Positions 4,127 through 61,525 of a stretch of 64,000 nt of DNA are shown one piece after another. This stretch comes from Diphasiastrum complanatum (Eukaryota > Streptophyta > Lycopodiopsida > Lycopodiales > Lycopodiaceae). Under the pieces are notes generated by a model. That model was given only the letters and a program-made list of their open reading frames with translations, made no database searches and had not been told where the DNA came from. Made by a program: the position numbers and the translations under genes. The first letter of the stretch is position 1; every line of letters begins with the position of its first letter. The stretch spans positions 5,063,125-5,127,124 of the forward strand of contig CM055097.1 in the NCBI GenBank assembly GCA_029204225.1, given 5' to 3'.

Positions 4127-5440
4127 ATGGAAATAAGTGACGACGAGCCAGAAAAGGGGATGCAGCCAAGAAGAAGTCAGACCCCTCCACTAACCACCAC
4201 CACCACAACAGTCACTAACATCATCCCTTCACTCCCTCCACCTCCACCTCCATCTTCAACTCTAACACTGTGTTTATATTTTGGTTTAGCCTCACCATCC
4301 CACACTCCAGATCAGTACCCAACCCTCACTAACCCTGAAAAGCTCACTGAAGCAGCCAAGATTTCGATGATTGGCCTATCTGAAATGAGCTACCACATGC
4401 ATTAGTTGGTGAGCCAACACCAAATGCTCGAGAGCAAAGTCCAGCATCAAGACCAAGAGATTGTGCAATATCAAAGGTTGGTCAAAGAGAAAGAGAAAGA
4501 AACAATGAAAACCAAATCCGTGATGGCTGGACAGAAGTCCACTCTGGAAGAGGTCCAACAACAACTGAACCACCAGATGGTCCAAATCGACCAAGTACGG
4601 GACGGATCATCAAGTGCAATGATAGTCATCGTAGCTCTAGTCAAGCCCGAAGACATTCAATTCCAGGCCCCACAGGCCTCAACCATCCGGATGGAAAAAT
4701 ACATAAGGCTAATCCAGGAACGGGAAGCCGAGAAGCAAAATTTTGGAAACATTGTGGCCAAACAAGAGAAGATCATCCTGGAGTCCCAGAAGCAGCTGGA
4801 AGACACTACGAAGGCCCTGCAGCAAGTCTTGGACAAGGTGAACCAACTATGGGACACGGCGTGCAAGGCTCAAGCAGGTGCTCAATCAACAAAGCCGCGG
4901 GATGATGATGGGAATGATGGTGCAGGAAATCAAGGCGGGCAAACCCACCCTTCAGACGGTAGCTCGAGATCGGGTGGCCAGAGAGCTGGTGCTGCTTCCA
5001 TGACTTTTCCCCGACCCCCTCCCACCTTTAACACTTCCTCCTATTCTGCATTTAATTTTTCTGAAACATTCATTCCAACTTACCCAATTCTTTCATCTCT
5101 CCTCTCTTCATCATCTCCTAGCAAAATAATGGGCCCATCAAAAGGTTCAGTTGACACTTACAAAGTCCGACAAGACGAGTTCCTCCAACAACTCCACTCC
5201 CCCGGTGCTGCGTATAACTTGTTGATCCCACCTCCTCCTAAACCCATCACCCCCGCACCCCTCTCCCTAGATCATTCCATCCCCGACCTTCCAAAAACTA
5301 ACACCGACATGGGGGGTGATGATGACTTCTTGGCAAACCAACCAGAAACGAGAAAGTTCTCGCCCAGGCCAAACACGGGTGCAGCTGAGCCGTCGACAAG
5401 TGACGAGCAAAAGAGAAAGATACGGGCACCAAGGCCTTAG
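4127..5440 (+). pseudogene. Coiled-coil, low-complexity ORF with an internal amber codon (unknown)
   Basis: One frame interrupted by a single TAG at 4403-4405 (context MSYHMH-stop-LVSQHQ). Before the stop it is Thr/Pro-rich. After it comes a highly charged Glu/Gln/Lys stretch of coiled-coil character (QHQDQEIVQYQRLVKEKE), then Gly/Asp-rich and Ser/Pro-rich linkers. A frameshift near 5412-5425 lets the protein continue as DDYLARPSQLRKTT. Likely the middle of the product that starts at 3202. No catalytic motif is visible; function unknown. Confidence 0.45.
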
Positions 5441-6161
5441 ATGATTATCTGGCAAGGCCATCCCAACTACGCAAGACAACTTCCCCTACTAGGCCCAGAG
5501 GCAAACTGGTCGACACAAGGGAGTCCGAGAAATTTGAGAGGAAATACCCTCCCAACATGAGGGGAGGCAAAGAAGACATTGAGCAAAGCCAATACTCCAC
5601 CAGGGCCGAGATCATTGCCGCGCTACAACCGCAGCCAGAATGGCGGACTAAAGTCCTGAAAGATAGCAGGCGGCTTCAAGAGTATTTGAAGGCACCGACA
5701 TGGAAGCGAGTGGATTCTTTCTACATGCCACTCAAACGCAGAAACACATGGCCGGTGGAAAAGCCTTGAGTGGAGTTAGTAAACTGGCCAGTCATTCCAA
5801 GAATTTCAGAGAGAACCTCCCCGGATGATCTGAGGCTGCAGTTACTCGACTTCGGACCGATCTTTGCGTGCAGGAAAGTGTCGAGTATTGCAGATCCATG
5901 GCCTTCCTGATGCAAAAAGATTGTTACTAGGATCGAGGCATGGAGCCCATCAAAATCAGCCCAAGTGTCGCCCTCCAGTCGGAAGAAGACCATGAAATGA
6001 TGGCCAGACTATACTACAGAGCGGCCTTCATGTTGTCACGCTATGTGACCATGGTGGAAGACTGGCAGGAAATGGGCTTTGTAGAAAATATAAGAGAATA
6101 TCTGGGGCTCCTCAATTTTGGAAGTAAGCTCCGCTTCCAAGTTTTTGAAGACCTGGGCTGA
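5441..6161 (+). pseudogene. C-terminal remnants of the same unknown ORF
   Basis: Two shorter open stretches, about 5441-5769 (ending RRNTWPVEKP) and 5940-6161 (ending RFQVFEDLG), continue the charged, helix-rich style of the preceding ORF in shifted frames. The gap between them has several stops. No family recognised. Treated as the decayed tail of the unknown transposon ORF. Confidence 0.35.
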
Positions 6162-6249
6162 AAAATGAGCGAGCGAAAGCAGACGGCTCGACAACGAGGC
6201 GAGCAGGATTCACAAGAATTGCTCAAGAGGGCTGGTATGTAGCGGCCAA

Positions 6250-6813
6250 TTGGGAGACTACCAATTTTGACAAACAAATTTTGCGGATAATAAGCACTTG
6301 TAACCCATAAACCAGGAAGGAGGGAGGGGTGAAGGCCATGCCCAAGAGTATTAGTTTATCAAAGGTAAAGACCACTTCCTTGCTTTGTGCCTTTATGGGC
6401 ACGATGCCTTGCCAAGGTAGTTGTCCAAGTTGATATGGGTGGGTGTACACGTAATGCCTTGTCCACATAAACAAAGTAGGTCTTCATGACATGTAAACAA
6501 GGTGATATGAAATATCACAAGAGTCTTTTTGGTAGACAACTGAGAACTTAAAAAGCCTTCAAATAAATCAAAAAATAAGAGGGAACCCATTTCAAATCAA
6601 GCTCTCCTAAGAGCTACATCTCATATTTTTAGGTGGGTGGCAAAGCTAAAAACACACAGGTTTTGTTCTTGTGTTATACCACCTCCATGAAAATGTTGTA
6701 GGCATTCTAGATGGTTGAAGAGCGCTCAATCATAATAGACCTCCACACATGAAGCTAACGCAGCACGACTTATGTTGTTGATTGTACTCAGCTGCTCGCT
6801 GCTAAAAAATGCT
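6250..6813. other. No gene seen between transposon remnant and SINE
   Basis: Open frames here are short and share no recognisable motif. This interval separates the Gypsy-associated ORF from the tRNA-like SINE and the chitinase. Confidence 0.5.
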
Positions 6814-6890: not shown

Positions 6891-6917
6891 ATTGAGTGCT
6901 GCTCAAAAATGGATAAA

Positions 6918-8045
6918 CTACAAGCTAGATTTGATACTTGAACTGTAGCCATTGTCACCGGAAAAGTCCCAGAACATCACTCCACCGTACTTGCTCGAGG
7001 ACCTGATATGGGGAAGTATGGAGGAGATGAGAACATCGCTTGGAATGAAGCCGTTGTCAGTTGCAGAAGGCGACACTAGCAAGCCCAAGAAGATCTTCTC
7101 CGCTGGAGTGTGTTGAACCCATTTGTTCCAGGCTGCCAGACCGCTGGACTGATCTCTGTTGGCATTCGGATTGAAATTACAAGGTGGGTTATTGTAGAAT
7201 TGCACCCATACGTAGTCGAAAAGCCCAGTCTGAAGAGCTAAGCCTTTACCTGGGCCTACGTAAGCATCTGGGAAGAGACACTGCGGTGCGGCACTGAGAT
7301 AGTAATGCTTCGATTTGCCTTTGGTAAGCTTGCGAATAGATTGGGCTAGTTGGGCATACGATTGCAATCCGTTGCCTTTCTCGATGTCAAAATCGATGCC
7401 GTCCAGCACTGCCTCACCCAAAGGCCTGTGGCTGGAAGTACCTCCCAGGAAGTTGTGCCACAGATATTGTGCCAATGAGTCTGCCTCTTTCTGTGAGCCC
7501 ATGCCATATTGTCCATCTGCCCCTCCGAGAGAAAGCAAGATCTTTACTCCTTTCTGTTGGCAGGTGTGTATGTCTGTGGATAATGTAGTACATCCTCCAC
7601 TAGGAGGATCACAATGCCCAGCAAGGTCAAGCCCCGGAGACTGTCCTCCTCCGAAATTGTTCAAAAAAGCCATAATGATGACCCCATAGTTTCCAGTGTT
7701 ACATGCATCAGCGAGAGAGCCTTCCTTATCGCCTTGCCCCCAGTAGACAGCTATGAATCCCTTTCCCTTTCTAACAGCATCGAAACTTGTTTGTGCAAAT
7801 GGTGCTGGTCCTGGGCCAGAACTAGGTGTTGATGCTGGTGCTTGGGTAGAATTAGAACACTGGATCAGGCAGCCACTTCCGCAATAGACATCTGTAGATC
7901 CACAGTATCCATGTTGGCCACAACAAAGGCCCTCACTACATAAATTGGTGGCTGAGCATCTCTGCGCAGCTGAAAAATCCAACTCATACATTAGAATCAG
8001 TGATTGGAGTAACACAATAGCGGCGGAACGCTGATTTCGTGCCAT
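6918..8045 (-). CDS. Secreted chitinase: hevein (CBM18) domain + GH18 catalytic domain
   Basis: Hydrolyses beta-1,4 bonds of chitin; expected outside the cell or in the vacuole, in defence. The ATG at 8045 gives 375 residues and matches the MARxQ start of its paralogue. Residues 1-27 are a signal peptide with likely cleavage before QRCSATN. Residues 28-63 form a hevein domain with all eight cysteines; the usual aromatic ligand positions read His, Tyr, Tyr (CGQHGYCGSTDVYC). Residues 65-95 are a Pro/Ser/Thr linker. GH18 spans about 97-375 with LSLGG, the catalytic DGIDFDIE (Glu222) and YVWVQFYN. No intron or frameshift is seen. Hevein domains in plants usually accompany GH19, while class III GH18 enzymes usually lack one, so the architecture is uncommon. 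A paralogue lies at 60596-61525. Confidence 0.93.
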   Translation of the reverse strand: MARNQRSAAIVLLQSLILMYELDFSAAQRCSATNLCSEGLCCGQHGYCGSTDVYCGSGCLIQCSNSTQAPASTPSSGPGPAPFAQTSFDAVRKGKGFIAVYWGQGDKEGSLADACNTGNYGVIIMAFLNNFGGGQSPGLDLAGHCDPPSGGCTTLSTDIHTCQQKGVKILLSLGGADGQYGMGSQKEADSLAQYLWHNFLGGTSSHRPLGEAVLDGIDFDIEKGNGLQSYAQLAQSIRKLTKGKSKHYYLSAAPQCLFPDAYVGPGKGLALQTGLFDYVWVQFYNNPPCNFNPNANRDQSSGLAAWNKWVQHTPAEKIFLGLLVSPSATDNGFIPSDVLISSILPHIRSSSKYGGVMFWDFSGDNGYSSSIKSSL

Positions 8046-12600: not shown

Positions 12601-14374
12601 AGTTGAGAACAAGGTAAACTGTGAAATGAGACGCAATACAAATTGCAACACATGCAATTAATGCATGATAAGTTTTGCAAGTATCACAAGGTCAATAAAT
12701 ATGCTGGAGGACCAAAGAAAATGAATGTTTAAAAAGAATAATTGACTATTTCTACAAGTTTTCCTTCCAAAATGTTTTAAAGTTGTTGTAGTCCTTGACC
12801 ATTGACAACCTTTTTCTATGTCTCAACACAATATTGAAAAAATAAACTAATTGTAAAATGTACATGCCAATACTATTATTGAACGTTTGCCTCTCCAGAT
12901 GTGGAAGAAGACATTTATCATATTTTCCACCTTAAATACAAGAGTGAGAGTTTGTTCAAAATCAACTACAAGCTTTCAAAGTAATTTAACAATAACCAAT
13001 TCGATTTCAAGATGACATTATCCAAAAAGTTGAATAACTTTTGTTGGCACAAAAATGTTTCAGTGGGAACTATCTCAATCTAATATATCATTAAGGAGTT
13101 GTATATGAGCTTTTGTACGTAGCTTAGTAAAAACTACTCGTAGTTTATAAAAAAATAACAGTGTAAGATTCTTACTAGTTAAAAATAAGAAAAATCATTT
13201 TGATAAAAATCTCCATAGATAACTCTCTTTCCCATGAAATCTAATGCAATTGCATGCAAATTGTCCCTCCAACCCCAAAAATAGACTACAATTTTTCAAG
13301 TAGTAAAATTTTTGGATTTTTAGCTTCCGGTTGCACATACAATTTGTGTGCTGACAATGCCAATACAAAGACCAATGACTAGATGAGCCCTACTTTTGTC
13401 CACCAAAATCTTAGTAGAATGTTTGATTAAAACAACAGAAAAATAGATTGGATAAAGAAAACTTCATCAATCACTACTAATCAAGCAACATGATGTAATA
13501 TGAGTAGAAGCTAATAGGAATGCCAAAAGAAAATATAGGCAAGAGAATTTTTTTAAAATGATCTATCATAATTGTAACAAACAAACTACATTCATAAAAA
13601 AAACTACTACAAGCAAGCTCATTAGTGTATTTGAGCTATTTGATGTTTATATTGGAAAGACAAAACAATAGTGGAAACAACAACCATTCATTTTTGCATT
13701 AAATGATTTCATTCTAGAAGATCTAACAACACATCCATTAAAAAAAAAAATTCAAACAATTTGCTATCACAATTGGTTGCAAACTTTTCATTAGGGAAGC
13801 TTTTAGCTCCAAAAAGACCCTTTAAGAATTCGTGCAAGATGTCTTTTGTATTAACACTAATAATTTTGACTTGCCAAAACTTTTTAATCGTAGCTCGGAA
13901 GTATGTCATCTAACATATCATTGAAAAGCCCTTGTCAAGCGCTTTTCAATGCACCAAACTCCGATAAATTCGGACTTACCACTAAAACATTATGCCATTT
14001 TTAGTGTGGAATCAAAATGTGGACTCAAAAAGTTACATTATGTAGATTTCAAATTTAAGTGTTTTGATTGGTCCATGTGTAAGAAAAATTTGAGAAAAAA
14101 TATGAAAAGAATCTTCACAAAGGGTCTTTTTTGGATTTAGAACTCCTCTGATGGATTCTATAATTTGATATATTGCTAAAAAGATCAACCACTATAATGC
14201 CTTACCAAACAAAAAAAAAAAACTAGATCAACAAATTATCAAAAATTCAGAAAGGCGTGCAAATTTATAAACGAAAGTAATATTGATGCAAGACTCAACC
14301 CATAGTAATTTTCATGATATCAGACGAAAAAAGTATATGTATTATATGGCATCATTTGACGTACAATGCACGAC
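9671..14374. other. 4.7 kb of AT-rich DNA without a supported gene
   Basis: Open frames are few and short, with no recognisable domains. The base composition is strongly AT-rich with A/T runs. No LTR, TIR or RNA gene could be supported. It may be old, unrecognisable transposon sequence. Confidence 0.5.
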
Positions 14375-14896
14375 AAAATCGTTGTTTCTCTTTATCTTTA
14401 ATGATCAGCTTTGCTGTGTGGTAAATTTTTTTTCTATCATATGGACCTAGAAAATCAATGGATCTTCTTTTGCTCAAGTCTATGTATCCGAAGAAAACAG
14501 TTAAGGAGGAAGACCTTTTAGGAACTTCCTCAACTACATAGCCAAATACTTTTATGACAATGTCTCTCCTCGCAAAAATAATTTTATATGTATTCTAAGG
14601 GTATTTAGCAAATCTCTTTATTTACAAAGCACTTCAAATAATGGGACAGGGATGAATCCCTTTGTTGTGATCCCTGGCCTTCCCTCACATATCCCTATCT
14701 TGTTGCAAAGGCATCTACCTCCACAGTAGCTTGTAAAATACGAGCAAACGTCACATATCTTGAAAAAAAAATAACTATATTTGAATAGAAATCTCATTCA
14801 AATAAAACCGAATTTACTTACCAGATCACGCTCATCAGCTTGAATAATTGTAGCAGTATGTAAATCATGACCAACAATTATGGTCGTCGAAGCCAT
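14375..14896 (-). pseudogene. Copy A, left gene: internally deleted remnant of unknown acidic protein
   Basis: Homologue of the gene at 53101-54632. The first exon is reduced to 14822-14896: ATG, three codons matching the start of copy B, then the exon-1 end GHDLHTATIIQADERDL, directly before a GTAAGT donor. Copy B has about 1 kb more here, so copy A carries a large in-exon deletion. The second exon, about 14375-14729, is recognisable (VEVDAFATR, SLSHYLKCFVNK) but has several stops. The conserved intron position in both copies shows that the ancestral gene was spliced. Diverges from the histone-like gene at 15143. Confidence 0.7.
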
Positions 14897-14942: not shown

Positions 14943-15080
14943 GTCATAGCGATACCAGCCTCAGTTTCTAGTATCGCCATCACGCGTGAAATCTGTCTTG
15001 GTCTTCTTCTGTGACGTTATCCTCACATCGTAGAGATATCCATCTGTACCTCCCAATATCGCCATCACACAAACGAGTCT
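14943..15080. repeat. Motif array ATATCG-N-CACGCG in the divergent spacer of copy A
   Basis: The spacer between the two divergent genes holds repeated short blocks: AGCGATACC, GTATCGCCATCACGCGTG, AGATATCCATCTG and AATATCGCCATCACAC. The same ATATCG plus CACGC arrangement recurs in the spacer of copy B. Confidence 0.55.
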
Positions 15081-15142: not shown

Positions 15143-16911
15143 ATGAATCAAACTGCTAGGCTTACTAGCTTTGTTGAACCAGCCCGTCCACAGACTTCTG
15201 GACCCGTACCTCTGCAAAGATGCAGAAGACCTCACCGTCCATGGTTGAGGGACATCTGGGCATTGCAAAGGAGCACCAAGCTTCTGATCCCGAAAGCAGC
15301 CTTCTACCGGGCTCTGAGAGAGGTCACGCAAGATATGACTGCTCATCTGCCCTATGGAGTGAGGTGGAATATCACTGCATTGGAGGCACTCCATACTGCA
15401 TACGAGGACTTCCAGACAAAACTGTTTGAGGATTCGATCATGCATGCCAAGAGGGTGACATTGATGCCCAAGGACATGCTTCTTTTCATGAGGCTTCGAA
15501 ACACCTATGACAGTATTTTTAAGTTTGGCTTCACATAGAGGCCAGTTCCTCTTGAAAGGGGGCTTGTCCCACCCCAAAAAAGAGAGAAAGCAAGCACATT
15601 TGAAGCGTTCACAACCCAAGCCTAGGCCTAGGTCTCCCAGCTCTTCATCATCGCCTCCTCGCATTAGAAAAGATGTGGTAAGTACGTCGAGAATTCCATG
15701 GGTTGAGAGTCCTCCCCCAAACCCTGATCTTGAAATGCACAGTTCTCCTTCTCTACATGCAGATGATTTAAATATAGTGGTGGACATGATTGTTTCTAAT
15801 GTTGATGCAATTGATAAAGAGTTGCACATCAGACTCCCCAATGATCCAAAGGACACATTTTGATTTTGAGAGGTACATTGATTTTGACATGTATATAGCC
15901 AAAAAAATAGACGATCTCAGAGGAGAGTTTATGTTTTGTTTATATGATATTAATTTTCCAATGCATATCAAAGACCCACATTGTAGGGAGCTAAAGGAGA
16001 AGACCTCCCATATCTCAAACACAATAGTTGAATCTGGGTGTGTATACTATGTACATAAATATACATATACAATCAAGAAGGAGATTTTTGTTGTATCCCC
16101 ATTTTTTGGGCATCTATTGAATAAAGAGAGGAAAGCTAGAAGGCTCTTCAGGCACACAAGCAAGGAGGCATCAATCTTCATCATCCCATACTGTGCTAAG
16201 TAAGATAATTTCTTTTTGTAATATTTGTTTTTTGTAAGATTTTTCTTTTTGAAACTCTTTTAGATTCTAGTAATTCATTGCTTATTGTCATTTGCTAGCA
16301 GTAAACATTGGAGCATGCACGTCATATCTATGAAAGTGGATTTTACTAGAAGCTGCACACCTATGTGCATGACAATGAATTCCTTGCATGCCACCCATTC
16401 CACTGTTAAGTCCATGTACAAGAGGATGGTGGAGCTATTGCCCAGGCCAGATGGGCTGATTGTAAATACTAACATAGAGATTGTTGATGCAAAGGTGAAA
16501 AAGATCTTTTCACGTTTTTTATTTACATGATGGCATGGAGTTTAGAATTATATTGAATTATAATTTAGCATTTTTTCGCTGTGATTTCTCAGTCTTTGCA
16601 ACAAGATGATGCTTTCAGTTGCGGATGGTTTTCCATCTAGAATGTAAAATCATTCTTGGATTGGTATATGGTGCAACCTCCAAATGCTAATATTCGTGAG
16701 ATAAATTTCTTAGCTTCCAGTATCCTGATGATATTATGGTAACTTTCTGTATTTTAGACATTGGCTTAACATACATACATACACTCGATATTTTAAATTG
16801 CAGTTCCAATGTCCAGAGGTATCAACAAATGCTATTCATCAGTACCGGCATGAAATGTTGAAAATCTTACTATCGTCTGCAAGGCCCTACAAGCATGAAG
16901 CCCTCAGATGA
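15143..16911 (+). pseudogene. Copy A, right gene: CENH3-like histone H3 fold fused to Ulp1-like (C48) protease
   Basis: Residues 1-131 (15143-15538) match histone H3: tail NQTAR for KQTAR, then STKLLIPKAAF, ALEALHTAYEDF, LFED and HAKRVTLMPKD. A Trp and extra residues in loop 1 recall CENH3. A TAG at 15536-15538 interrupts; a basic Ser/Pro linker and a helical region (ERYIDFDMYIAKKIDDL) follow after frameshifts. The protease is spliced: exon end at 16199, exons 16302-16494, 16593 to about 16710 and 16804-16911. It shows HWSMHVI (His), an Asn where Asp is usual (MNSLH), then QQDDAFSCGWFS (Gln, Cys at 16620-16622). A TAG at 16638-16640 follows. C48 proteases cut SUMO-type conjugates. Role of the fusion unknown. 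Confidence 0.75.
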
Positions 16912-17240
16912 AATTGTCAGGGGTTCTGTGGATTGCGAAGTTGCAATGCTTGAGGATCTGCCTCAGACACTTATGATTGAGATGTAAATATTGAAATATA
17001 AGTTCCGACAAATACATAGAAATATATCATCACATGATGATGCATAGAACAACAGATAGGGGGCTATTATTGAAAGCCACGAATATATTATTTCGATTTT
17101 AAAAACAATGTACATTTTTCAAAATACTAAATGCTAATTGTTCGATGAAATCTTGAAGTCATTTGAGACTACTTTGTATTTTTTTTTTGAAAGGTACATT
17201 GTTGTTTCACGTCTACCATTCCACAAGTAAAGTCTAATTA

Positions 17241-17521
17241 TGTTAAAGGACCCTATCTTGACTTTTGGGGGTGCCCTATAATTAGTAGTGGGTTTGGAAG
17301 GTTCTAGAACTTAGGGTTTGGAAGACTCTAGGCCCTTGGAAGGCCTATTTATATATACTCATTATTCATTTGTAATTCATTCCCTTTCAAGCATTGCTAC
17401 TACTTTCTCTCTCCTTGAGAGCGCCTAACCCTCACCCTCTCCCTCTCCCTTTTCTTCTTCTTCTGCTTCTTGTATATGGAGATTGAATGTTAGAAGGGTC
17501 TTGGCATTTTGATTTCCTACA
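17241..17521 (+). mobile_element. Copia-type 5' LTR
   Basis: Begins TGTTAAAGGACCC and ends CCTACA, with a TATA-like run near 17346-17357 and a pyrimidine-rich 3' part. It is followed directly by a primer-binding site, so it is a 5' LTR. Almost no internal element sequence follows, so the element is truncated or a recombination remnant. Confidence 0.7.
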
Positions 17522-17534
17522 TGGTATCAAAGCC
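17522..17534 (+). other. Copia primer-binding site (initiator tRNA-Met)
   Basis: TGGTATCAAAGCC, one base off the usual TGGTATCAGAGCC, immediately after the CA end of the LTR. The tRNA 3' end primes minus-strand cDNA synthesis in Copia elements. Confidence 0.75.
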
Positions 17535-17811
17535 ATGGATCTTCTATGCTTGATTTAAGGCGCCCTGTTTATGCAGTTTCGACATTTTCTAAGCTTCTTT
17601 TTAAATCCTTGCACTGTATGCGATTTTCTTGTCTTGGTCTTACCTGTACATCAAAAAAAACTTGTTAAACAATATCAACATTGAGATTATTTTAAATGAA
17701 ATCTTGCAATCCTAAAAACATCGAAATAAGTCTAAATAAAATCATTGAAAATCATTTCAAATGTGTATGTATTATAGAAAACATACATACATCTACCAAT
17801 CTCTCATTGAC

Positions 17812-18177
17812 TCAAAAACAGAAGTGTTCAAGAATATCATATTGCAGCAAGGTAAGCTCTGATCGAATGTGATCGAGTGTCCAATCTTTCTCCACCTCAA
17901 TTGTTGTAATAGTAGAATTATTTTGCTTCTCTTGGATTTCTATTTGATCTTGATGATTCATTGTAAAATCCTGATCCAATGCTTTCCATTCATTGCCAAC
18001 TTTGGACCATCTTCTATAATAAAATGTTAAAGAAAGCACTTGTTTTTCTATAAGATATCTAAAATTCATTGATGATCTATTAACTATGCACTCGGTATTG
18101 CCATTACTCTTTTTATCCCAATGATCATCAAGGAGGCGTGATGACATATCGTCTATTAAATCACTACAAATTAACAT
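17812..18177 (-). CDS. Hypothetical 121-residue ORF
   Basis: An uninterrupted frame ending QYDILEHFCF, with a charged segment TLDHIRSELTLL and an aromatic stretch FYYRRWSKVGNEWKAL. I recognise no family. It begins about 280 bp past a Copia primer-binding site but on the opposite strand, so it is not gag. It may be a captured exon or a chance frame. No start context or promoter supports it. Confidence 0.25.
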   Translation of the reverse strand: MLICSDLIDDMSSRLLDDHWDKKSNGNTECIVNRSSMNFRYLIEKQVLSLTFYYRRWSKVGNEWKALDQDFTMNHQDQIEIQEKQNNSTITTIEVEKDWTLDHIRSELTLLQYDILEHFCF

Positions 18178-18510
18178 TGTGTTGTTCTACAAATATTACA
18201 TTAAAAAAATCTACAAACATTGCAAAAGGCAAAAACCAATGCAATCTATTGTTTTTTGAGCATGTGCTACATTTCATACAGTTTGAATGTCCATAAAAAC
18301 CCTTGATCGAAAGCTCTATGCTATGGTGGAATCCGGAGGAATCAATTCTTCGCTTGAGAATGTCATTGCAATTCGACCATTATCCAACAATAATCGATTC
18401 TTTGTGAGGATTATGCCCAATTTTTGGGCTCTTTAAAAAGCAAAAAATGTCATTGGCTTTTTTAAAAAATTTCTGACAAAAAAAATCACGTGCGTCAGTC
18501 CACGTCAGCT

Positions 18511-21349: not shown

Positions 21350-22123
21350 ATGGAGAGCGATGGTGATGGCGATGGCCACCTTTGCTCTTCTTCTCCTCTT
21401 CTCACTGATTGTGGGGATTTCTCTCAGGATGTGGACATGGATGTGCAGGCTTCTTCGCCCTCTTTTTCCGCTCCTCAGCATATGCCTTACGTGCCCTCTT
21501 CTCCTCTCAGTCACGTGCCTCCATCATCTCTCGCCCCTGCCTTGCTCCCTTCTTCCTGTGGAGGGGACGGCCTCCTACCGGCTCCCTCGTGTGATCTGTC
21601 AGGCTCCTCTGAGCCTCTCTCTTTTCCTCCTTTCCCTTTTCTTTTCTCTCCTCTTCCTTCTTCTTCTTCAGCTCTTCCTCCCTTATCCTCCGCTGCTCCT
21701 ACTGTTCCTTCTGGTCTCCCTTCTTCTGCTCCTCTACTGCAGGTCCCACTCCCTGCCTTGCTCTCCCCTGCCAGCTTGTATCCTTCTAACAGCTTTCCCC
21801 CTTTGAGCGCTCTTGCTCCTCGTTTTCCTCTTCCCCATGGCTCATCGATTTCCTACGCCTCTGTGGCTGCGCAGGCCCATGGCTCCAATGCCTTCATCCC
21901 CTCAGCTGTCTCCTTCAGTGACTCAGCCTGCCCCGGATTGGCCCCCTCTGTCACAGGTGGTGGACAGCTCTTCGCTCGGCAAGGATTTTCGGCCCCAGCA
22001 ACGTCTTCAGCCTCAGCGGCTGGCTCGCGGCTGACCGGTTGTCCACTTTTCACCTCCTCTTCTGCCAAAAATACTCTATTAGGCATAGAAGAATGTAATT
22101 TTATCATTGAGGGAGAGTGTTAG
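21350..22123 (+). pseudogene. Ser/Pro-rich ORF running into a Copia LTR
   Basis: The frame is open from the ATG at 21350 to a TAG at 22121-22123. It is very rich in Ser, Pro, Ala and Leu, with one SYASVAAQA segment of the kind seen in LINE ORF1-type proteins. The last residues (IIEGEC) are only the translated polypurine tract and LTR start. The ORF is therefore a chimera of a low-complexity reading frame and a Copia 3' end, joined somewhere near 22040-22080. No function can be assigned. Confidence 0.35.
22108..22117 (+). other. Copia polypurine tract
   Basis: TGAGGGAGAG sits directly before the TG of the LTR at 22118, the usual plus-strand primer of Copia elements. It marks the LTR as a 3' LTR. 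Confidence 0.7.
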
Positions 22124-22380
22124 AAATCAATGATAAACTTCATTGTTACTGTTTACGAGGTACATTAATGTTGACAGCTGTGACCAGCTGTCATTAGTCG
22201 TAGGCTAGTCTATTAGTCTACTCATAGGATTTCTCTCTCTATCAGGGGTTCAGGATTTATTTGTACATTTTACATTCTGTATGAGTTAGTGTGATAGAGT
22301 GACAGTGCGTGTTCTTCTTCCGCCTTCTTGTGGTTATTGCTTATGGTGAATGCTTGATGTTGCATATCTAATTCTTGACA
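22118..22380 (+). mobile_element. Copia 3' LTR, 263 bp
   Basis: TGTTAGAAATC ... ATTCTTGACA. The 5' boundary is set by the polypurine tract. The 3' boundary is set by the match of its last 20 bases to the LTR end beside the primer-binding site at 34491-34502. A second copy lies at 36253-36490. Almost nothing of the element body remains upstream. Confidence 0.8.
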
Positions 22381-27275: not shown

Positions 27276-27736
27276 TACCTCTGCATCAACCATTTTTAGC
27301 TTCGAGTATGCTTTTTCATTTGGTACTGGAAAGAGTTCCAATATTTTCTGTATATGAGTCCTGGCAATTTTGTGTGTGTGTGTGTGTGTGTAATAGAGTT
27401 CATCTTCAAACAAACTGGATTACACACACCCTCATCATTGACGTATAGGGACAACACATATAAGCTCCAATGATCACTGAAATCAGAAAACAAGAAATCT
27501 ATGAGAATCAATGTGAAATCAAAATTCATATGAAAAATTCAATAAAATAAAATCTGAAAAATAGACATTTACTTTGTTATGTATGGCAGCACAAGAATTG
27601 GAGTCCCCAGTCTGACGTATTGGAGCATATCATTGTGCAAACTTTTGAAATCAGGGAAATCAAATGCTGCCATGAATTGAAGGGGAAACAATGCAACATC
27701 TATAAACAATGGGGTCTAAAAGAACTCCATTCAATA

Positions 27737-29286
27737 CTAAATTGCCCCACTTCCTACATTGTCCCCTAGCATTTTATCCCTACTTTCTAATTCACCAGTA
27801 TCTAAACTAGAAAGGGGGAGACCAGCATTGGTCTTCGGAATCCTAAAACTGTATCGAGGACCTAAACCTTTAAGATACGTGTTTAACAATTGGTCATACT
27901 GTACATATTGAGAACTATTTACAAAGGCAAGTGCAGGGGGTGACGGAAGTAACACTGATAAACCACATAAAGAATTGTCATTCAAAATTGATTCTACCTT
28001 TACACTAACAAAATCATCTAAATTGCTTCCAACAACAGGAGGAGGGGAACTAATATTTACGAGTTTAGGAGGAGGAGGAGATTTAGGAGGTGGAGATTGG
28101 TTAGGAGAGGAAGATTTAGCAGGAGAAGTTAAAGATGGAGTGGAAGGAGAAGAAGGAGACTTAGGAGGAGAATTAGGAGGAGAATGCCTAGAAGAAAGAA
28201 TAGTATTCAGAGGAGATGGCTTGGAAAAATCCCTCGCTTTAGATGGAGGGTCGAGAGACCTCCTCTTCTTTGAAACACTCCGGCTCTGTATACGAATAAC
28301 AAGCTGGGTTGGTTGAGATTGCTTTCGTTTTCTCCTCTCTGAATCTTGTTTTGGAGGAGAGGAGGGAGCAGGTCTAAAGTATTCAATCAAAACAGTCTCT
28401 ACAATTTCAGTTTTCATTTTTTCAAACCGAGCATTTTTTATCATTTCCTTTGCTGACTTTCTTGGTAAAACATGACTTGAAGATGATCCAATGCATGAAC
28501 GATCTGTTAATTAGTTCTTTGCCACCAAACATGATCTGCAACAAACATATGAAACTCAAATTATATTTAGTAAATAAATAATCCATGTTATCAAGTGCAA
28601 ATCAAACTTAAATGACATATACAAATTAAATAAACAGTTTAGATGACAACATACTTGAATGCTTGGATTCTTTTTTTCTGATTGCCGCTATGTGTAGATA
28701 GGTCATCAATATTCTTCATCGGTACTCTCTTTCTTTTTCACTTCATCATTGCCTTATTGATAACTTTTAGATCAACAGCAGATTTTAAACTCTCGGATCG
28801 CAACTTTTCCATGGATTCTAACATTTCTTGGTTTGATCCTCTAAGAGTAGTGACAGTTGCATTCAACTTTGACATAACATTCTTGAGTACATTGGTTTCA
28901 GCACTAGTGTGTTGCACATAATGAAGCAATTGTTGATTTGCACGTTGCAATTGTTGATTAGCAAACTGTAATTGTTGATTCAGACAAGATATGCTACTAT
29001 CACGCAACCTTTGACAATATCCAAGTAATCTGCTATTTCCTTCACATACATATCTGAGAAGATGAGTTACGAACTTAAAATCTGGACACAAATTGGTAGC
29101 TGGATCATTAGGATAATTTGATCCATCCAACCACAAATCTATATTCATATAATTATTCATTCTCAATTCTCTAACTATCGCTGCAACATTCTCTACAACT
29201 TTCGTATTTTCCTTAATAATTGGAGTGCATTCCATCGGAAGAGCAACATGCAAATGGAACATTACCATTGTTAAAGCTACAATCAT
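27737..29286 (-). pseudogene. Unknown spliced coiled-coil / Pro-rich protein gene, broken
   Basis: Exon 1 (about 28640-29286) holds charged and hydrophobic segments, then three near-repeats of ANQQLQ and a long coiled coil (SMEKLRSESLKSAVDLK). A TGA at 28738-28740 with a frameshift precedes basic sequence ending RIQAFK at a GTATGT donor. After the intron the frame resumes near 28539 with a TAA in context SCLVAKN-stop-LTDRSC. It continues as a basic and Ser/Pro-rich tail (KRKQSQPTQLV, repeated SPP) to 27737. Splice sites and the shared frame show it once encoded one protein. It lies between Copia remnants; host gene or transposon origin is open. No family recognised. Confidence 0.45.
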
Positions 29287-36252: not shown

Positions 36253-36490
36253 TGTTAGAAATCAATGATAAACTTCATTGTTGCTGTTTACGAGGTACAT
36301 TAATGTTGACAGCTGTGACCAACTGTCATTAGCCGTAGGCTAGTCTATTAGTCTACTAGTAGGTTTTCTCTCTCTATCAGGGGTTCATGGTTTATTTGTA
36401 CATTTTACATTATGTATGAGTTAGTTTGATAGAGTGACAGTGCGTGTTCTTCTTCCGCCTTCTTGTGGTTATTGCATATAGTCAATGCTT
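36253..36490 (+). mobile_element. Lone Copia LTR, 3'-truncated
   Basis: Matches 22118-22355 with about 13 differences over 238 bp by eye, same orientation. It lacks the final 25 bp or so. There is no polypurine tract before it and no primer-binding site after it, so it is a solo or broken LTR. Confidence 0.85.
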
Positions 36491-38409: not shown

Positions 38410-39468
38410 CTAATATAGAGGGTTAACAATATAATAGATAAACAGAGTGGGAAAGAGAAATGAGCATATTTGAAGGGAACATATATGATTGTAATATCTT
38501 GCACAAGTTACAGGATCATGTCGAATAAGGTTTTGTATATTGCTTTCTTCTAAATGCAAGTGTGTATCGGAGTTATGAATATTTGCTAAGCTATGCAAAC
38601 ATGTTACAATTTCTGGCCAATGTGACTCAGCACTTGTGAACATTACAAATAATGTTGTGGATCCTAGTTGTCTGATCATGGCAAATATGTCCTTTTTTGT
38701 TTTGTCAAGATAATCGGGTGATGTGCGTAGCATTCCTAGATCTCTATATCCAATATCAGATTTCATTATTGTGGCAATTTTCGAAGTGTCAAGCATGTCT
38801 TTTACTTTAAGAGTACGTCCATAAGTTTTTCCTTTTCGTATATGAAATTGTGCAGTTGATAAAATGAACTTAATTTGACATTTAATAGTTTTTTAAAATA
38901 GATTTGGAATGTGAGTTGCGAAACGCCTATCATGGTGCATGATTTTCCATTGTGCAATTTGTTGATATGTATTGTTTTTTGAAGAGCATTTTCTGTTGTC
39001 GACATCTATAAAACAAAGTTGGGAAATTTGAAATAATCCAAATGGTTGATAACCTTCGGCTGGTGCTATTGAGATGATTTTGTCTTCAAAATTTTGTATT
39101 TTTGTGATGTTAAAAAATTATGTAAATAATATTGCTATCAGTATTCTGTAATATTCATTGGCTTGTAATTGTTCTTTCCAATTAGGAAGAATTTGTATGC
39201 CCAATTTAGTATACAAAGTTTTGCAAAGGTCTTAAAATGTTGTCATTACGATATCAGGTCTAATTAAGGCTGAAGCAAAAACTTATTTATATTCAAGCTT
39301 TCGCTTTATTTGTATAGCTATAGTGGAATTCTCATCAGGGAATTGAGGCAGTGTAGTTTGAATCTTATCCAAGTTACTAGGTACATTAACAATGCTTCCG
39401 TGCAAACTAAATTGCATTTGCCGAATTTGTGCAAATGCATGTCTAGGTGATACTAAGCGTTCTTCCAA
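38410..39468 (-). pseudogene. Helitron Rep/helicase protein, Helitron-like N region, truncated
   Basis: Helitrons move by rolling-circle replication using a Rep-helicase. Visible here are LEERLVSPRHAFAQIRQMQF (start of the N region), then KNNTYQQIAQWKIMHHDRRF, GMLRTSPDYLDKTKKDIFAM and IRQLGSTTLFVMFTSAESHW. The last two are diagnostic of the helitron_like_N domain, ending at HDPVTCARYYNH. The sequence stops there, before the Rep HUH motif and the helicase, neither of which is found downstream. Stops and frameshifts break the frame near 38800, 39005 and 39280. Confidence 0.8.
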
Positions 39469-45384: not shown

Positions 45385-45660
45385 GAGGGAGAGAGTTAAA
45401 ATAGCAATGATCGACTTATACAGTGCTTTCTAATTGCGACGGCACCACGTGTGCTCAGTCCTAGAATTATCGGGCCGTCTTTCTTTTACGAGCCCTTTGA
45501 GTGCTCTTAAGTAATTTTATCTTTGTACTTGTTCATTAGTGTGAATATACAGTTTGTGGGAGAGCAATTTTGTTGTCTTGTCTTATTGCACTTGACGTTG
45601 TGCTGTGGTGATTGATTCAGTCGGGGTTTTAAACTGTATTTCAACTATAGATTATTAATC
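45385..45660 (+). mobile_element. Polypurine tract and probable 3' LTR of the plus-strand Copia
   Basis: ATTGAGGGAGAG (45385-45396) is a Copia polypurine tract, followed by AGTTAAAATAGCAATGATC, where the LTR TG seems mutated to AG. The start resembles the TGTTAGAAATCAATGAT family. The 3' end is uncertain. Confidence 0.5.
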
Positions 45661-51965: not shown

Positions 51966-52941
51966 AAGCTTGAAGGCTGCTCCTACAACGATTCTCCTCC
52001 TCTAATCGAGCAAATTTAAAACATCCATGTCTATATTGTATGAAATCATCAAATGACATTTCAAGGAACACAAGAGTTTCAAGGGATATTGAAGATCCAA
52101 ACTGGAAACCAGTACTACCAATTCCTTTACAAAATGTGCATATTTGCACACTTCATGGAGAGGTGAGGATCATAGAGAAATTAATATATCTTCATATCTT
52201 GTTTGCATGGAATACTAAGCCAAAGTCAGCATCAAAACAAGCAATCGCTCTATTAGAGGAAGTGTTGTCAAAAGCAGGCCTTCATAAAGGCCATGTTAAA
52301 ATACAAAAACATGAAAAGCTTTTGAGAAAAATAGGAAATGTACCCAATAAACCTAGCATAGGAGGAGTCAAAGCTAGTCGATTTTTATCAAATCATTCTA
52401 AAGAGTTGTCTAAGATCCAATACTTGGTATGGAAAGATGTTATTTCTGCAACAGAAGACTTTGAAGATAAAGAAACAACAAGGGTAAAGAAGGTTGAAGT
52501 TTAAAAAAAGCTCGATAATATGGTTGAAGTGCTTAGAAAAGACACAATTTCATATGCAGATGCACTCCTATAGAAAACAACAATAGAGTTTGTAGATGCA
52601 GTTCGGGTGGCTTGGGGCTCAGATCACATCACCCACTACATGGTAAGATACATTTGAACAGTGTCTTACAATTTTATAATTTTAGTATAACTTGCTTGAT
52701 AGATTCTAACCAATGCATATTTTTCTAACCAATGCATAAATCTTTGATATTGCAGCACATACTAAGGCATCATGCATCATTTTTTGCAAAAAAGTATGGC
52801 AGTTTGAGTATATGGTCCTCACAAGGAATGAAGAAATCACATTGGTAGGCAAGAGCAACATTTCATCGAAATACACAACATGGCGGAACATCCTCAAAAA
52901 ATAGTTACATCATTCAGCTATTCCAATGGTTTTATAGATGA
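51966..52941 (+). pseudogene. Unknown spliced transposase-like ORF
   Basis: Exon 1 (about 51966-52642) reads LKHPCLYCMKSSNDISRN, then DPNWKPVLPIPLQNVHICTL, HGEVRIIEKLIYLHILFAW and PSIGGVKASRFLSNHSKEL. It has TAA at 52502-52504 and TAG at 52572-52574. A GT-AG intron (52643-52755) splits HITHYM from HILRHHASFFAKKYGSLSIW, followed by SSQGMKKSHW, a stop, and TFHRNTQHGG. The CxxC start and the conserved-looking tail suggest a mobile-element protein, but I cannot name the superfamily. It lies upstream of copy B and may belong to the same large element. Confidence 0.45.
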
Positions 52942-53100
52942 GCTCAAGTGCGATACACAACAAGATCAACTGAATATCAAAGATTCAAAAAAGCATCTAA
53001 ATTTATAAGCCAAATTTAGATTGATGCCATTCAATATAGATCAAATGCGTGTGATCAAAAATTCTCAAATTTTACATACATTAAATGGAAAAGAGTACAA

Positions 53101-54632
53101 TCATTTTTTTTCATTGTCTCTAAGGACAATTTTTGTTGTGTGGTCATGAAGGAACTTTTTCCTATCATAAGGATCCAAAAATCGAGTGGATTGCTTTTTG
53201 TTCAGATCTATATATCCTGATAGAATTGCCAGAGCAGATGATCTCATAGGAACATTTTCTGGCACGTAATTGAACACTTTAAGAGCAACATCTCTTTTGA
53301 CAAAAATGATTCTATATGTATTTTTTGGATATTTATGCCCTTGGGAAAAATAAGATAGGGCCTTGATGGCCATGATTAAGATTCTCGCATTCACAAAAAA
53401 CCTTTCATGAAGAATACAAATTTTGTTATTTACAAAATGTTTCAAATAATGAGCCAATGAGGCATCCTTCTGTCTCCCGCCTTCTCTCTCTCTCAATCCT
53501 CCATGCCTGCTAGCAAAGGCATCAACTTCAACGATTTCCTACAACACATAATCAAGTTTTGGTCAAACTAGCAGATCAATCATCAGTTACACGTTAAATA
53601 GTAAATTATTTTTGTGAGAAGGTGTACTTACCAAATCCTCCTCGTCAGCTTGGATCACACCAGCAGCTTCTAAATTGTGACCAGCAATAATGGTCAATTG
53701 CTGGTAAGCTGGAATAGTATATATGAGAGGTGGCAAATACTTTTTCTGAAAAGCCAAAAACTCCTCCTCACTCGGCATATTAGCTTCATATGCCATGCTC
53801 TCAGATAGCATCCTTTGAAAGGCATCTGTGCCACTTGCCCATTCTAGCTGGTCCTCATAGTCGATGCCATCTATGAGGTCGTCATCATCAAAGTCAATAA
53901 AATCATTAAATTCAGAAATTATCCTTGACATAAGAGATAATATCTCATCTTCTCTGAGATCCATTATGTCTCCGATGTCACTAATGGACAAGAATGCAAT
54001 ATCGTCCATATGGTACATAGGGAGGTCCATCAAAGTTCTGCTCTGGTCAATCTCGCTCACGGTAGATAAAGGAGAGATAGACAGAGAATGAGCCTTGGCA
54101 GGATCATATTGTTGTGCTTGCCTAGCCTCCTCTACATCTCCTAAAACCTCATCAGTAATGGAAACCTTTGAAGCCACACGGGTAGTAGGGGCAGGTAAAC
54201 CAATCATGGACGACCCAAAAGATTCTGTCTCGTCAGGGATAAGAGTAGATAAGAAAAACACGAAGCCCATACCCTCTTGAATGAAGCGACATACTCGATT
54301 GTGTTCCTCACAGGGTATGACACATTTAAATAGATCGATAAACTTATGATCATGCCTTTGCTTGGCACTAGGCTGAGCATGAGTCAAATCTATGAAATGC
54401 ACAAATCTCAGGCCGTCCATTAGAAGGGTACCATGTTGCAAGCACTCATAAAAATCCTTGTACAGTTTGGGAAAAGCTTCCATGTGCTCAATAACAAATC
54501 TCTCTATGTCAAACTGAAAATCAAATAAGACAAAAAATGGTCCTGTCTGTCGCTAACCCCAGCATCAACAAGAAAAGAACTAAGAGCTCTATCATAGATC
54601 GAACTAGTAGAAGAGGAGGCCATATCGATATG
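53101..54632 (-). CDS. Copy B, left gene: unknown acidic two-exon protein
   Basis: Exons 53632-54632 and 53101-53538 join at a phase-0 GT-AG intron (donor GTAAGT) in frame. The start MASSSTSS is matched by copy A. Near 54525 the frame shifts by one, or a 44-base micro-intron joins LVDAG to FDIERF. The product is about 470-490 residues: a helical N-terminus (EHMEAFPKLYKDFYECL), a very acidic middle (DFIDFDDDDLIDGIDYED), then IIAGHNLEAAGVIQADEEDL and a basic C-terminal half (TYRIIFVKRDVALKVFNYVP, DPYDRKKFLHDHTTK). No family recognised. It diverges from the histone-like gene. An acidic partner for a histone-like protein is an attractive but unproven idea. Confidence 0.6.
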
Positions 54633-54780
54633 AGGCGCCGATTAGCAAGGGGACATAAACGGTGTAATCCTGGGCGCGTGATGGCGATATACACTACTGT
54701 ACACGATTCTGCATATCGGAACTACACGCCAGGGGAGCAGTGCGACATTTAACCGTTTGTTGGGTGCGTGGTAGCGATAT
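54615..54780. repeat. ATATCG / CACGC motif array at the left-gene start of copy B
   Basis: Blocks ATATCGATATGAGGCGCC, GGGCGCGTGATGGCGATATA (inverse of TATATCGCCATCACGCG), CATATCGGAACTACACGCC and GGTGCGTGGTAGCGATATTG lie in both orientations. They match the style of copy A's spacer. Confidence 0.6.
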
Positions 54781-55221: not shown

Positions 55222-55464
55222 GGACATTTTGGACTCATATTTCCGTTTCGAATTTCTTTGTTCCCTAGCACTCCTCAGATTTCTTCGTTCACTTGTGCCC
55301 CTCGCTATCTGCATATCGCTACCACACGCCCAGAGAGTCAGTACAGCTTCCCCCTCCATGCGTCGTAGCGATACGCCACCTCTTGTATCGCCATCACGTG
55401 CCTCCCCTATCCGACATGCACTATTCTTTCTCATTGGCAGGTCATAACGATACCTTAGCTTGAA

Positions 55465-56986
55465 ATGGCCCATACCAAGCAAATAGCACGTCTTACCACA
55501 TTTGTCCCACCTCCTCGTCCTCCTGTACAAAGGGCAGTGGGCACTGGTAGGAGAGTAGATCGGCCTAGAAGACCATGGTGAAGGGATATCAGGAGACTAC
55601 AGAGGTTTGTGAGATTAGTGACAAGGTCAGTCCGACATGATGTTCGTTGGAACATAATAGCCCTAGAAGCCCTCCATATTTCCTATGAGGACTTTCAAGT
55701 TAAATTCTATGAGGACTCTACGCTTTGCACAGTGCACGCCAAGAGAGTTACCCTCATGCCTCAAGACATGCATCTTGTCATGAGGCTGAGGAGTACACAC
55801 GATCATGTCTTTAAGAGTGGCTTCACCTCTAGGCCACCACCTACAGAGAGAGGGCCTGTTTCTCAATGAAATAAGAGAAAGCAGACCAAGCTCACCAGGC
55901 CTACCAGGCAAAGGGTAGTACTCAGCGAATCACCATCCCGCCCTCATATCTCTCGTCCTTTGGTTGGACCATCACACCAGTCTGCAATGCATTCTTCTCC
56001 TCCCACCACCCCTAACTATTCAAGTAGTTCCTCTTCCATTCCCTCCATTCCATTCCACAATAACAAGGATATGACCTCTACGTAGATAAAATAATATCGG
56101 ATCTAGATATAAGTTTAATAGGTGATTTTTATAAGGATCTTTGTGTAAGATTTTTTGTTGATCTGAAAGATTCATTTTTGGATTCTGAGAGGTATATAGT
56201 TTTTGATGAGTATGTTGCCAAAGAGATTGATAAGCTAGGAGGTCAATTTTCTTTTTTTCTAAGTTCAATTAACTAGGTAAATCACATAATTAAAGACTTT
56301 TGTGATCCCCTGAAGGAGAAGACAACAGATATATCAGATCCAGTTGTGGAGGCTGGTTTGATGTATTTTGTAAATAGATGTAAATGCAATGATACTAAGG
56401 ACATTGGAGTTGTGCTGTCCTTTTTTGCACACAGCCTTCATAATCCAACTCAGGCAATGAAGTATCTTCTCCATACAACCTCGGATACCAAAGTCTTTAT
56501 TATTCCATACTAAATTACATAGAATATATTCAAGTAATATTTTTAATAGATATTGTAATTCCTTCAATTTAACTAATTATCTCTTGTTTGCAATAAGCAT
56601 TAGAGTATGCATATAATCTCCCTTAGGGAAGATTCAGATGGGATCATTAATCCCATCTGTTTAAAGATGAATTGCTTGAACTCTACCCATGTCAAAATGG
56701 ACGTGATGTACAACAGAATGTTGCAATCTTTGCCAAGGCCGGATGGGGCCACTGTAAATAGCCACCTGGAGATTGTTCATGCAGAAGTAAGTATTTCTCA
56801 TCAAGTATCTGATAGGTAATATGATTTGTTTTTTTTAGAGTGCACAACTAACCTATTATACGTTTTGTGATTGAAGTCAGCTCAGCAAGATGATGGACAT
56901 AGCTATGAATGGTTATCCATCCGCAATATACAGGACTTCTTAGAGTGGTACATCATACAATCCGGGGCTCCAGATATACGAAAGGT
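55465..56986 (+). pseudogene. Copy B, right gene: CENH3-like histone H3 fold fused to decayed Ulp1-like protease
   Basis: Begins MAHTKQIARLTTF, close to the H3 tail. A TGA at 55579-55581 falls where copy A has Leu (PW-stop-RDI). About ten residues of the first H3 helix are deleted. The rest is clear: VRWNIIALEALHISYEDF, FYEDSTLCTVHAKRV, TLMPQDMHLVMRLR. The LCTV segment, missing in copy A, is kept here. A Ser/Pro linker and the helical region (SERYIVFDEYVAKEIDKL, LKEKTTDISDPVVEAG) follow with stops. The protease part has HW changed to H-stop at 56600-56605 and SCGW changed to SYEW, so the catalytic Cys is Tyr. Introns match copy A (donor GTAAGT after 56786; acceptor before 56878). Confidence 0.75.
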
Positions 56987-57380
56987 AAATAGACTAGTGA
57001 ATGGCCTAACTAGGTTATTTTAGTGTACAAATGGTGTTTTTTTTATAAAATGGGGAAGGCCCTTGCCCCTCAATCCTATTGGCTAATATTCACAATGATC
57101 CTATCCATTCATCTTGGACCCAACTTGATCCAAGGGTCCACAAAAAGTACATTGGTAATCACAAGATTCATGTGAGTCCCAATTTAGGCGCAACTCTAAA
57201 AAGTAATCTCTAAGTTCAAAAATGACTTTGGGCCTCTAATTTTATTTTAACTCCAAGGCTCACGTCAAGTTTATTTTATTTACAACTTTACTTGCGTGCT
57301 CATTGGGCCATGGAGTTACGCGCGCAGGATGCCATGCCCTCACAACACATTTTACTGGATGATTTTATTTATTTACACTT

Positions 57381-57403
57381 TGTTGGGAATACTCCCAACA
57401 ATG
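57381..57403. repeat. Short perfect inverted repeat
   Basis: TTGTTGGGA and TCCCAACAA flank ATAC: a 9-bp-arm hairpin about 400 bp past copy B. Possibly the junction of an inserted element's ends. Confidence 0.55.
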
Positions 57404-57565
57404 ACATCTATAATACCCGAAAGAGACGCCACAGGTTCCCATTCATGTATATTTGAAGGATATAGATCTGCAATACAAAACCAAAATAAGCTCTGATTCA
57501 TAAATACAATTACGTTTTAAAAATGACAAGCAACCCAAAAAATTAAGGTACTTACAATTACACTC

Positions 57566-57849
57566 TCAAAAATCATGTGGATTTATTGCCTCCACATTAA
57601 GTTCTGGATGCATATAAACATGTTGAATAAGCACCTCTGAAATGGTTTGTCCTCTTGGAGAAACTTTGAAATCAATAATCCACCCTTTCCAATAAGATAT
57701 ATATGTATACATGGCCTTTTTTTTTTTTGGCAAAAAGCCCCTCTCGCCGATGGATGCATCAGTACCCAAGAAGCCTTATGATATTCACGAGCAATCCATG
57801 AACCTACAAGTACGGTACTTGGACTATAGCTACAAGTACAGTATCCCAA
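57566..57849 (-). pseudogene. Unknown transposon domain (copy 2), frameshifted
   Basis: Minus-strand match to 46060-46476: KASWVLMHPSARGAFCQKKK, then after a shift in an A/T run (near 57719-57729) SYWKGWIIDFKVSPRGQTIS, EVLIQHVYMHPEL and NPHDF. The Cys codon here replaces the TGA of the other copy. It lies about 600 bp beyond the histone-like gene on the opposite strand. Confidence 0.5.

Positions 57850-60565: not shown

Positions 60566-61525
<960 letters not shown>

Follow-up and report, generated by a model that had tools for sequence, protein, structure and literature searches.

The locus at positions 15143 to 16911 of a 64,000-nucleotide stretch of the Diphasiastrum complanatum genome (C6:5063125-5127124, here called the window) raises the question of whether a transposon can encode a histone of its own, and what such a histone would do when joined to a protease. 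A description made from the letters alone, referred to below as the sequence-only reading, proposed that a mobile-element gene at this place fuses a CENH3-like histone H3 fold to an Ulp1-like (C48) protease. We compared the locus with the whole genome (1,744,706,496 bases in 5176 contigs) and with protein families and structures, and the predicted product, carried by a DNA transposon, begins with an H3-tail-like N-terminus and an H3 fold, which are followed by a basic linker rich in Pro and Ser and by an Ulp1/C48-like domain bearing His-Asn-Gln-Cys.

The H3-like domain of this copy (copy 1) occupies 15143..15535 on the plus strand, where an ATG at 15143 opens 131 codons followed by a stop at 15536-15538. 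It matches the Pfam family Histone with E 4.1e-17 and 63 bits (cut-off 26.4) and, at E<=0.01, 174 distinct PDB sequences, the best 60 of which are H3, H3 variants or CENP-A, with S. pombe Cnp1 (CENP-A) at the top (E 6.4e-18); judged by these comparisons the H3 match is far beyond chance, and the fold proposed for the first 131 residues is confirmed. Among the 34 loci of the same subfamily (subfamily A) that were read for H3 traits, near-duplicates counted in, 32-34 keep C110, H113, D123 and L126, which we take to be the H3 residues holding (H3-H4)2, and the tail starts with MARTKQTAR in 13 and with MARTKQT in 19, as the canonical H3 N-terminus does.

Downstream on the same strand, the basic, Pro/Ser-rich linker (15536..15858) is broken in frame in copy 1 and open in relatives, and it is followed by the Ulp1/C48-like N-terminal half, the rest of exon 1, at 15859..16199, recognised by its genomic matches and by the joined C48 match given below. 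Introns 1 (16200..16301) and 2 (16495..16592) are both GT-AG and have counterparts of 99 and 98 bp in the relative L028, in agreement with the matching introns described before; the third intron of copy 1 is not clean. Exon 2 (16302..16494) carries the catalytic His at 16306 and an Asn at 16378 at the usual place of Asp, in a register that we take from the Ulp1 xDSL motif. The exon 3 region (16593..16740) carries QQ at 16599, SCGW at 16617 with the catalytic Cys at 16620, and one in-frame stop, and exon 4, the C-terminal part (16804..16908), is placed by matches to relatives. His, Gln and SCGW therefore stand where the sequence-only reading had put them.

When three of the four protease pieces of copy 1 were scanned singly, no Pfam family reached its cut-off. 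Joined over the introns (259 residues, X at stops) the pieces match Peptidase_C48 at E 2.7e-6 and 27.8 bits (cut-off 20.7). We assign this part to C48 putatively, on a modest profile score taken together with the catalytic residues: among 26 loci, with each site counted in those loci whose best match covered it, His is present in 22 of 22, Asn in 24 of 25, QQ in 24 of 24 and Cys in 20 of 26. Copy 1 is itself a broken gene copy: a stop follows the H3 fold, the frame changes twice on the way to Ulp1, and another stop stands shortly after SCGW in exon 3; this, and Asn instead of Asp as the third triad residue, are points that the sequence-only reading did not include.

Relatives elsewhere in the genome carry the two parts together. 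The H3 search scored the best 150 of 6354 first-look candidates, all at E<=3.6e-54, and the search with the Ulp1 N-half the best 150 of 3599, all at E<=6.8e-58 (first-look candidates, of which other searches gave 5531, 6353 and 9782, are not copy counts). Among the matches listed, most large contigs carry copies; C13 and C20 are absent from both best-150 match lists of subfamily A (H3 and Ulp1) and do hold other H3-like matches or element ends. Ulp1 pieces follow at near-constant spacing downstream of 33 of 40 H3 loci, or at 29 of 36 distinct places once four places fetched twice had been removed, the seven H3 loci without such pieces being L004, L007, L008, L012 and L038-L040. The last three belong to a block on C3 (18.5-21.7 and 29.9-30.2 Mb) that is repeated many times; they share flanks and contain an H3-only element remnant whose open frame has 171-172 codons.

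A stop-free frame from H3 into the Ulp1 N-half is found in L010 and in L018/L021, where it runs over 382 codons from before H3 through the Ulp1 N-half. L028 yields a gene model of four exons (4810-5879, 5979-6171, 6270-6377 and from 6488) separated by introns of 99, 98 and 110 bp, all GT-AG, and its product of 517 residues matches Histone at E 2.6e-23. With strict splice patterns the full set of sites is present in 6 of 41 loci, corresponding to 5 distinct places. At the level of reading frames, then, the genome does hold copies in which both parts are open, and the proposed fusion of H3 to a C48-like protease stands.

The same order recurs in other subfamilies. In L048 (subfamily B, a relative of copy 2, the second copy in the window) H3, linker and Ulp1 N-half lie in one frame of 422 codons, and in subfamily C they do so in L047, L052 and L053 (402, 347 and 340 codons); the L047 frame begins inside the transposase-like gene of the element, probably by a deletion. 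In L086, a relative of a third window copy (copy 3) with a 405-codon frame, the stretch upstream reads MAWTKQTTRGHSGG...; this is an H3 fold that continues without a frame change into the linker known from copy 3. Matches to Histone are clear in all of these (E 1.8e-25 for L047, 1.3e-24 for L048, 4e-28 for L052, 2.4e-24 for L053 and 1e-14 for L086). The H3-Ulp1 order is thus common to at least four diverged subfamilies (A, B, C and that of L086), implying that the fusion is old. In subfamily D (L049-L051) an H3-like domain ends with RRERN/S, with no Ulp1 in the stretch read, a poly-proline stretch precedes it in L049 and L050 (two of the three loci read), and L049 matches Histone at E 2.3e-29. 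This family is dispersed and of high copy number, the best 150 of 6353 candidates showing 78-100% identity (G000:C17:36125806-36126129).

Both parts of the fusion are under purifying selection, as measured within subfamily A and between subfamilies A and B. When copy 1 was compared with copy 2 over H3 and the first linker codons, codon positions 1, 2 and 3 differed at 49, 45 and 91 of 142 sites, and the ratio of nonsynonymous to synonymous differences per site (pN/pS) was 0.33 (95% interval 0.25-0.41) for H3, 0.45 for Ulp1 and 0.23 for the divergent gene of the element, with synonymous sites saturated or nearly so. Pooled over subfamily A, pN/pS was 0.41 for H3 (26 loci, 7 of them with a stop), 0.57 for the linker (23 loci) and 0.39, 0.43 and 0.35 for the Ulp1 pieces (23, 18 and 25 loci). 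With ratios of 0.33-0.45 between copies 1 and 2, both domains have been selected as protein through most of the period since the two split. A chance match to Ulp1 was considered and is ruled out by the common exon order, the residues and the selection.

The carrier is a high-copy family of terminal inverted repeat (TIR) DNA transposons, which measure about 10 kb and have inverted ends that are fixed. Alignments of 10-kb stretches end at the same bases, CATTA on the left and TAATG on the right, and identical ends adjoin differing flanks; with up to 2 mismatches the end patterns occur 421 times (left) and 260 times (right) in the genome, and reversed-pattern controls occur 0 times, which bears out the earlier description of the gene as one of a mobile element. 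Pairing by eye among approximately the first 100 listed places per end, a few possible longer pairs being omitted, gave 13 end pairs, eight of them 9.88-10.12 kb apart (two share flanks) and five 6.1-8.5 kb apart. The gene order is a coiled-coil open reading frame (ORF, +), a transposase-like gene (+), a divergent gene (-), the H3-Ulp1 gene (+) and a minus-strand ORF region. A Pfam scan of the element ORF pieces other than H3-Ulp1 gave none above cut-off, the transposase-like pieces included, and these had no convincing match among PDB chains (best E 0.32).

No target-site duplication was seen at 14 copies with both flanks, representing 12 distinct insertions, and no shared motif was visible by eye in the flanks of the 12 insertion sites. 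The memberships considered were CACTA, Mutator-like element (MULE), Ginger and Polinton. MULEs make a target duplication of about 9 bp, and membership there, or with the KIU-bearing elements discussed below, was rejected on the lack of a MULE transposase in the Pfam scan of the ORF pieces and of a duplication at the 12 sites. CACTA/EnSpm elements have CACTA/G ends, a tnp2-type transposase and a 3-bp duplication, and they were rejected as well, the ends here being CATTA, with no such Pfam match in the pieces and no 3-bp duplication.

Is the histone part derived from CENH3, as its Trp and longer loop 1 had suggested? The loop-1 Trp and an insert occur together in all 34 of the subfamily-A loci read. 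In subfamily B the Trp stands without an insert, L086 has the Trp, subfamily C reads 'VRF' with neither, and subfamily D also has neither. In a tree of 11 sequences (the plant CENH3 rows here and below were entered by hand) all the transposon H3s cluster together, with support of 100/100 and a long branch, and approximately unbiased (AU) tests rejected neither their placement with plant CENH3 (p 0.48) nor that with H3 (p 0.43). With 17 sequences, subfamilies A-D and plant CENH3 stand apart from H3 and from human and yeast CENP-A (82/92). Moving A-D next to H3 costs 8.8 log units, and the AU test does not reject that placement (p 0.07). The transposon H3 shares with plant CENH3 and H3 the histone fold, LLIP, ED in helix 2 and an H3-type tail start, in addition to the loop-1 Trp (A, B, L086) and insert (A only), and it differs from them in its long separate branch, its C-terminal protease fusion and its high copy number. 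From these comparisons it leans to the plant CENH3 side, without strong support, and long branches meet there, CENH3 ancestry being a possibility; the two loop-1 traits are complete in subfamily A, partial in B and absent in C, and the tail is of H3 type. A genome search with a hand-entered Arabidopsis CENH3 was headed by 13 matches with 59% identity, followed by further H3-like matches, and the single one fetched of the 13 (L046) is a canonical H3; the host CENH3 was not identified by this one search, probably because its exons are too short for the search used.

Copy 1 has company within the window. A second copy in the same order was found by tblastn at 55465-57017, with H3 at 51% identity (E 4e-32) and three Ulp1 pieces (E 7e-26, 3e-19 and 7e-11). 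A self-comparison of the window by blastn (word 11, E 1e-4) gave no match between copies 1 and 2, and only relaxed blastn paired them, at 58-65% identity, indicating that the two diverged long ago. Copy 2 comprises part of the transposase-like gene, containing KHPCLYC (51974..53028, +; tblastx to L029, no Pfam family above cut-off), the divergent gene (53091..54628, -; sequence matches to copy 1 and L029, no Pfam family), the H3-like domain, which starts MAHTKQIARLT and has one in-frame stop and an internal deletion (55465..55827, +), the linker end with Ulp1-like exons (56070..57017, +; the joined piece matched no Pfam family) and the 3' minus-strand region of the element (57368..57804, -; alignment to relatives). 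In its Ulp1 part a stop replaces the Trp after His and the catalytic Cys is changed to Tyr. Around copy 1 we found a divergent-gene remnant (14219..14893, -; tblastx and blastn), whose 5' part is missing in comparison with copy 2 and L029, and the 3' minus-strand ORF region (17566..18360, -), 88-89% identical to L037 and L029, with 17224-17565 unaligned. Directly left of copy 1 lies a short element of 369 bp resembling a miniature inverted-repeat transposable element, with family-like ends (13788..14156; arms 13789-13828/14114-14153), whose part 14050-14156 matches the right end of L029. The motif TATCGCCATCAC stands before the copy 1 H3-Ulp1 gene at 14972..14983 and also 15057-15068 (+), before the copy 2 divergent gene at 54678..54689 (-) and before the copy 2 H3 gene at 55386-55397 (+); these are its 4 exact copies in the window, every one upstream of H3-Ulp1 or divergent genes, and with one mismatch allowed 5 are found in the window, where 0.11 are expected.

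Copy 3 (27296-29274, minus strand), in which no H3 was found by tblastn, consists of the coiled-coil gene (28654..29274, -; tblastx to L037), a linker with the Ulp1 N-half and without H3 (27737..28510, -; no Pfam family for the piece itself) and Ulp1 exon 2 with HW...MNS (27296..27538, -; tblastn E 2.9e-7). A search with its ORF scored matches at 148 places, out of 9782 first-look candidates, and these start at residue 39 or later except at its own place and one near-identical one. Since relatives match from residue 39 on, and L086, the one relative whose upstream was read, carries H3, copy 3 looks like a deletion product; the idea that part of the family natively has no H3 was dropped, L086 holding H3 at that position. 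The window also contains pieces of another related element (45647-45878 and 46183-46712), in which no H3 or Ulp1 piece was found, an ORF with Pfam Helitron_like_N (38410-38892, E 1.6e-8), an inverted pair of ORFs at 82% DNA identity by blastn (6917-7761 and 60682-61523), presumably chitinase-like, and a short repeat pair that is 94.5% identical (22118-22355 and 36253-36490).

Ulp1-bearing plant transposons are already known, and the fusion of a histone to them is, as far as we found, the new part: among the titles and abstract openings listed there was no report of a transposon-encoded H3-Ulp1 fusion, which is not proof of absence. According to an excerpt of PMC13317346, KIU (Kaonashi) are VANC-type genes with an Ulp1 domain, whose role is described there as unknown, in Vandal/non-TIR MULEs. 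Like KIU, the present gene is a conserved accessory gene that is borne by a plant DNA transposon and includes an Ulp1-type protease domain. The excerpt names no histone domain for KIU, and the word 'histone' is absent from that text (PMC13317346); the present element differs in having inverted-repeat ends, no MULE transposase by Pfam in the pieces scanned and no target duplication seen. VANC is a transposon-encoded anti-silencing protein, as the excerpt of PMC5735166 states. Ginger is a DNA transposon of another group that carries an Ulp1 protease (the word occurs 21 times in PMC2836005) along with a Gypsy-integrase-like transposase, whereas Pfam recognised none of that kind in the pieces scanned of the present element. 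Viral contigs scanned with the H3 part, the Ulp1 N-half and alignment A2 showed no relative at the sensitivity used, and bacterial and archaeal genome contigs scanned with the H3 part showed none, both being weak evidence because these collections are without plants. We know of no viral histone fused to a protease. Histone folds do occur in mobile genomes as viral histones, the subject of PMC9145170.

What would the fusion do? In the reading that we favour, to which we would give about an even chance, it is a transposon-borne chromatin effector, a histone-guided deSUMOylase that counters silencing. The H3 part would pair with H4, or be read as an H3 tail, and would bring the protease to nucleosomes, most likely the element's own; the protease would free silencing proteins of SUMO or a similar modifier, and with silencing lifted the element would be transcribed and mobile. 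The product would then be nuclear; the presumed H3-H3' interface residues and those that contact H4 are mostly kept, the tail starts as in H3, and the linker is strongly basic. The steps differ in strength: chromatin docking through the fold is moderately likely, deSUMOylation is likely if the Asn triad is active, and the anti-silencing outcome is the least certain, with a precedent in VANC and in the addition of Ulp1 to VANC-type genes in KIU. A bolder form, which we put forward tentatively as rather unlikely, is that the element marks itself, a private H3 variant sitting with host H4 in, or tethered to, element chromatin while the fused protease blocks SUMO-dependent silencing marks. In that form the elements would make up a transposon superfamily with a nucleosome part of its own, and the carrier, with neither target duplications nor a recognisable transposase, would be a new transposon group too.

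Several observations weigh against the effector reading. Picking the loci by their match to copy 1 biases the sample towards copies with a conserved H3, and among the 5 distinct places with full splice sites L028 alone reads to the end. The profile score of the protease is modest: of seven joined Ulp1 parts five match the C48 profile at E<=1 and only three exceed the cut-off of 20.7 bits (copy 1 27.8, L028 22.9, L020 21.0), L025 (20.2) and L036 (20.0) falling just below; the L006 part and the joined piece of copy 2 gave no match to this profile, C48 is absent at E<=1 from the full-length L028 product though its Ulp1 part alone passes the cut-off, and a profile search of PDB gave 0 hits. The catalytic Cys is gone in 6 of 26 loci, L021 has Asn at the His site (in a split match excluded from the site counts), and the third triad residue is Asn in place of the usual Asp; Asn is also third in the Ulp1-like Cys-His-Asn triad of the African swine fever virus protease pS273R. 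Centromere targeting finds no support in the sequence analyses. AlphaFold2 models of the H3 part alone and together with copy 2 reached a pLDDT (predicted local distance difference test) of 54.1 and 53.6, with the helix order aN-a1-a2-a3, and Foldseek with the first model (pLDDT 54.1) found no histone at E<=10; we consider models of such low score, and the search made with one, to be uninformative rather than counter-evidence.

Other explanations share much of this evidence. The H3 part, with or without H4, may serve as a targeting or assembly factor that tethers the transposition complex to selected chromatin or wraps element DNA, the protease acting on the element's own proteins or assembly partners, so that the gene would serve transposition and not anti-silencing. 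The same element holds a transposase-like gene, TATCGCCATCAC is common to the upstream regions of the H3-Ulp1 and divergent genes, and the presumed (H3-H4)2 residues are kept in nearly all subfamily-A loci; set against the spread of the listed copies over most large contigs and the lack of a flank motif by eye at the 12 insertion sites, this leaves it a possible but unlikely account. The H3-like tail start would also suit a dominant-negative histone that enters host nucleosomes or soaks up H3 chaperones and tail readers and so upsets chromatin at large, with the protease only keeping the product stable or SUMO-free, but constraint on the Ulp1 part is similar to that on H3, which is hard to explain for an add-on, and we think this distinctly improbable.

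That many copies carry stops, and that gene capture by plant elements is on record (in the excerpt of PMC13317346), recalls Pack-type hitch-hiking, in which host H3 and Ulp1 fragments were captured once and copied without function. Such a passive origin is already disfavoured and very improbable, given the low pN/pS at (near-)saturated synonymous sites between copies 1 and 2, the single order in four subfamilies and the mostly kept triad. Least credible of all is that two adjacent genes merely look joined: in copy 1 the H3 frame does end in a stop, with the Ulp1 pieces in other frames, but three subfamilies have loci in which a single frame leads from H3 to Ulp1 without a stop (L021, L048, L052 and L053), and in L086 the H3 continues in frame into a fourth subfamily's linker, which refutes it at the level of reading frames.

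A histone fold fused to Ulp1 in at least four subfamilies, and selected where this was measured, is a clue that the protease acts on chromatin. The finding makes testable the idea that a mobile element escapes silencing via a private histone, and the fusion is a natural candidate for a nucleosome-targeted deSUMOylase. In this plant genome, H3 variants are seen spreading outside host control.

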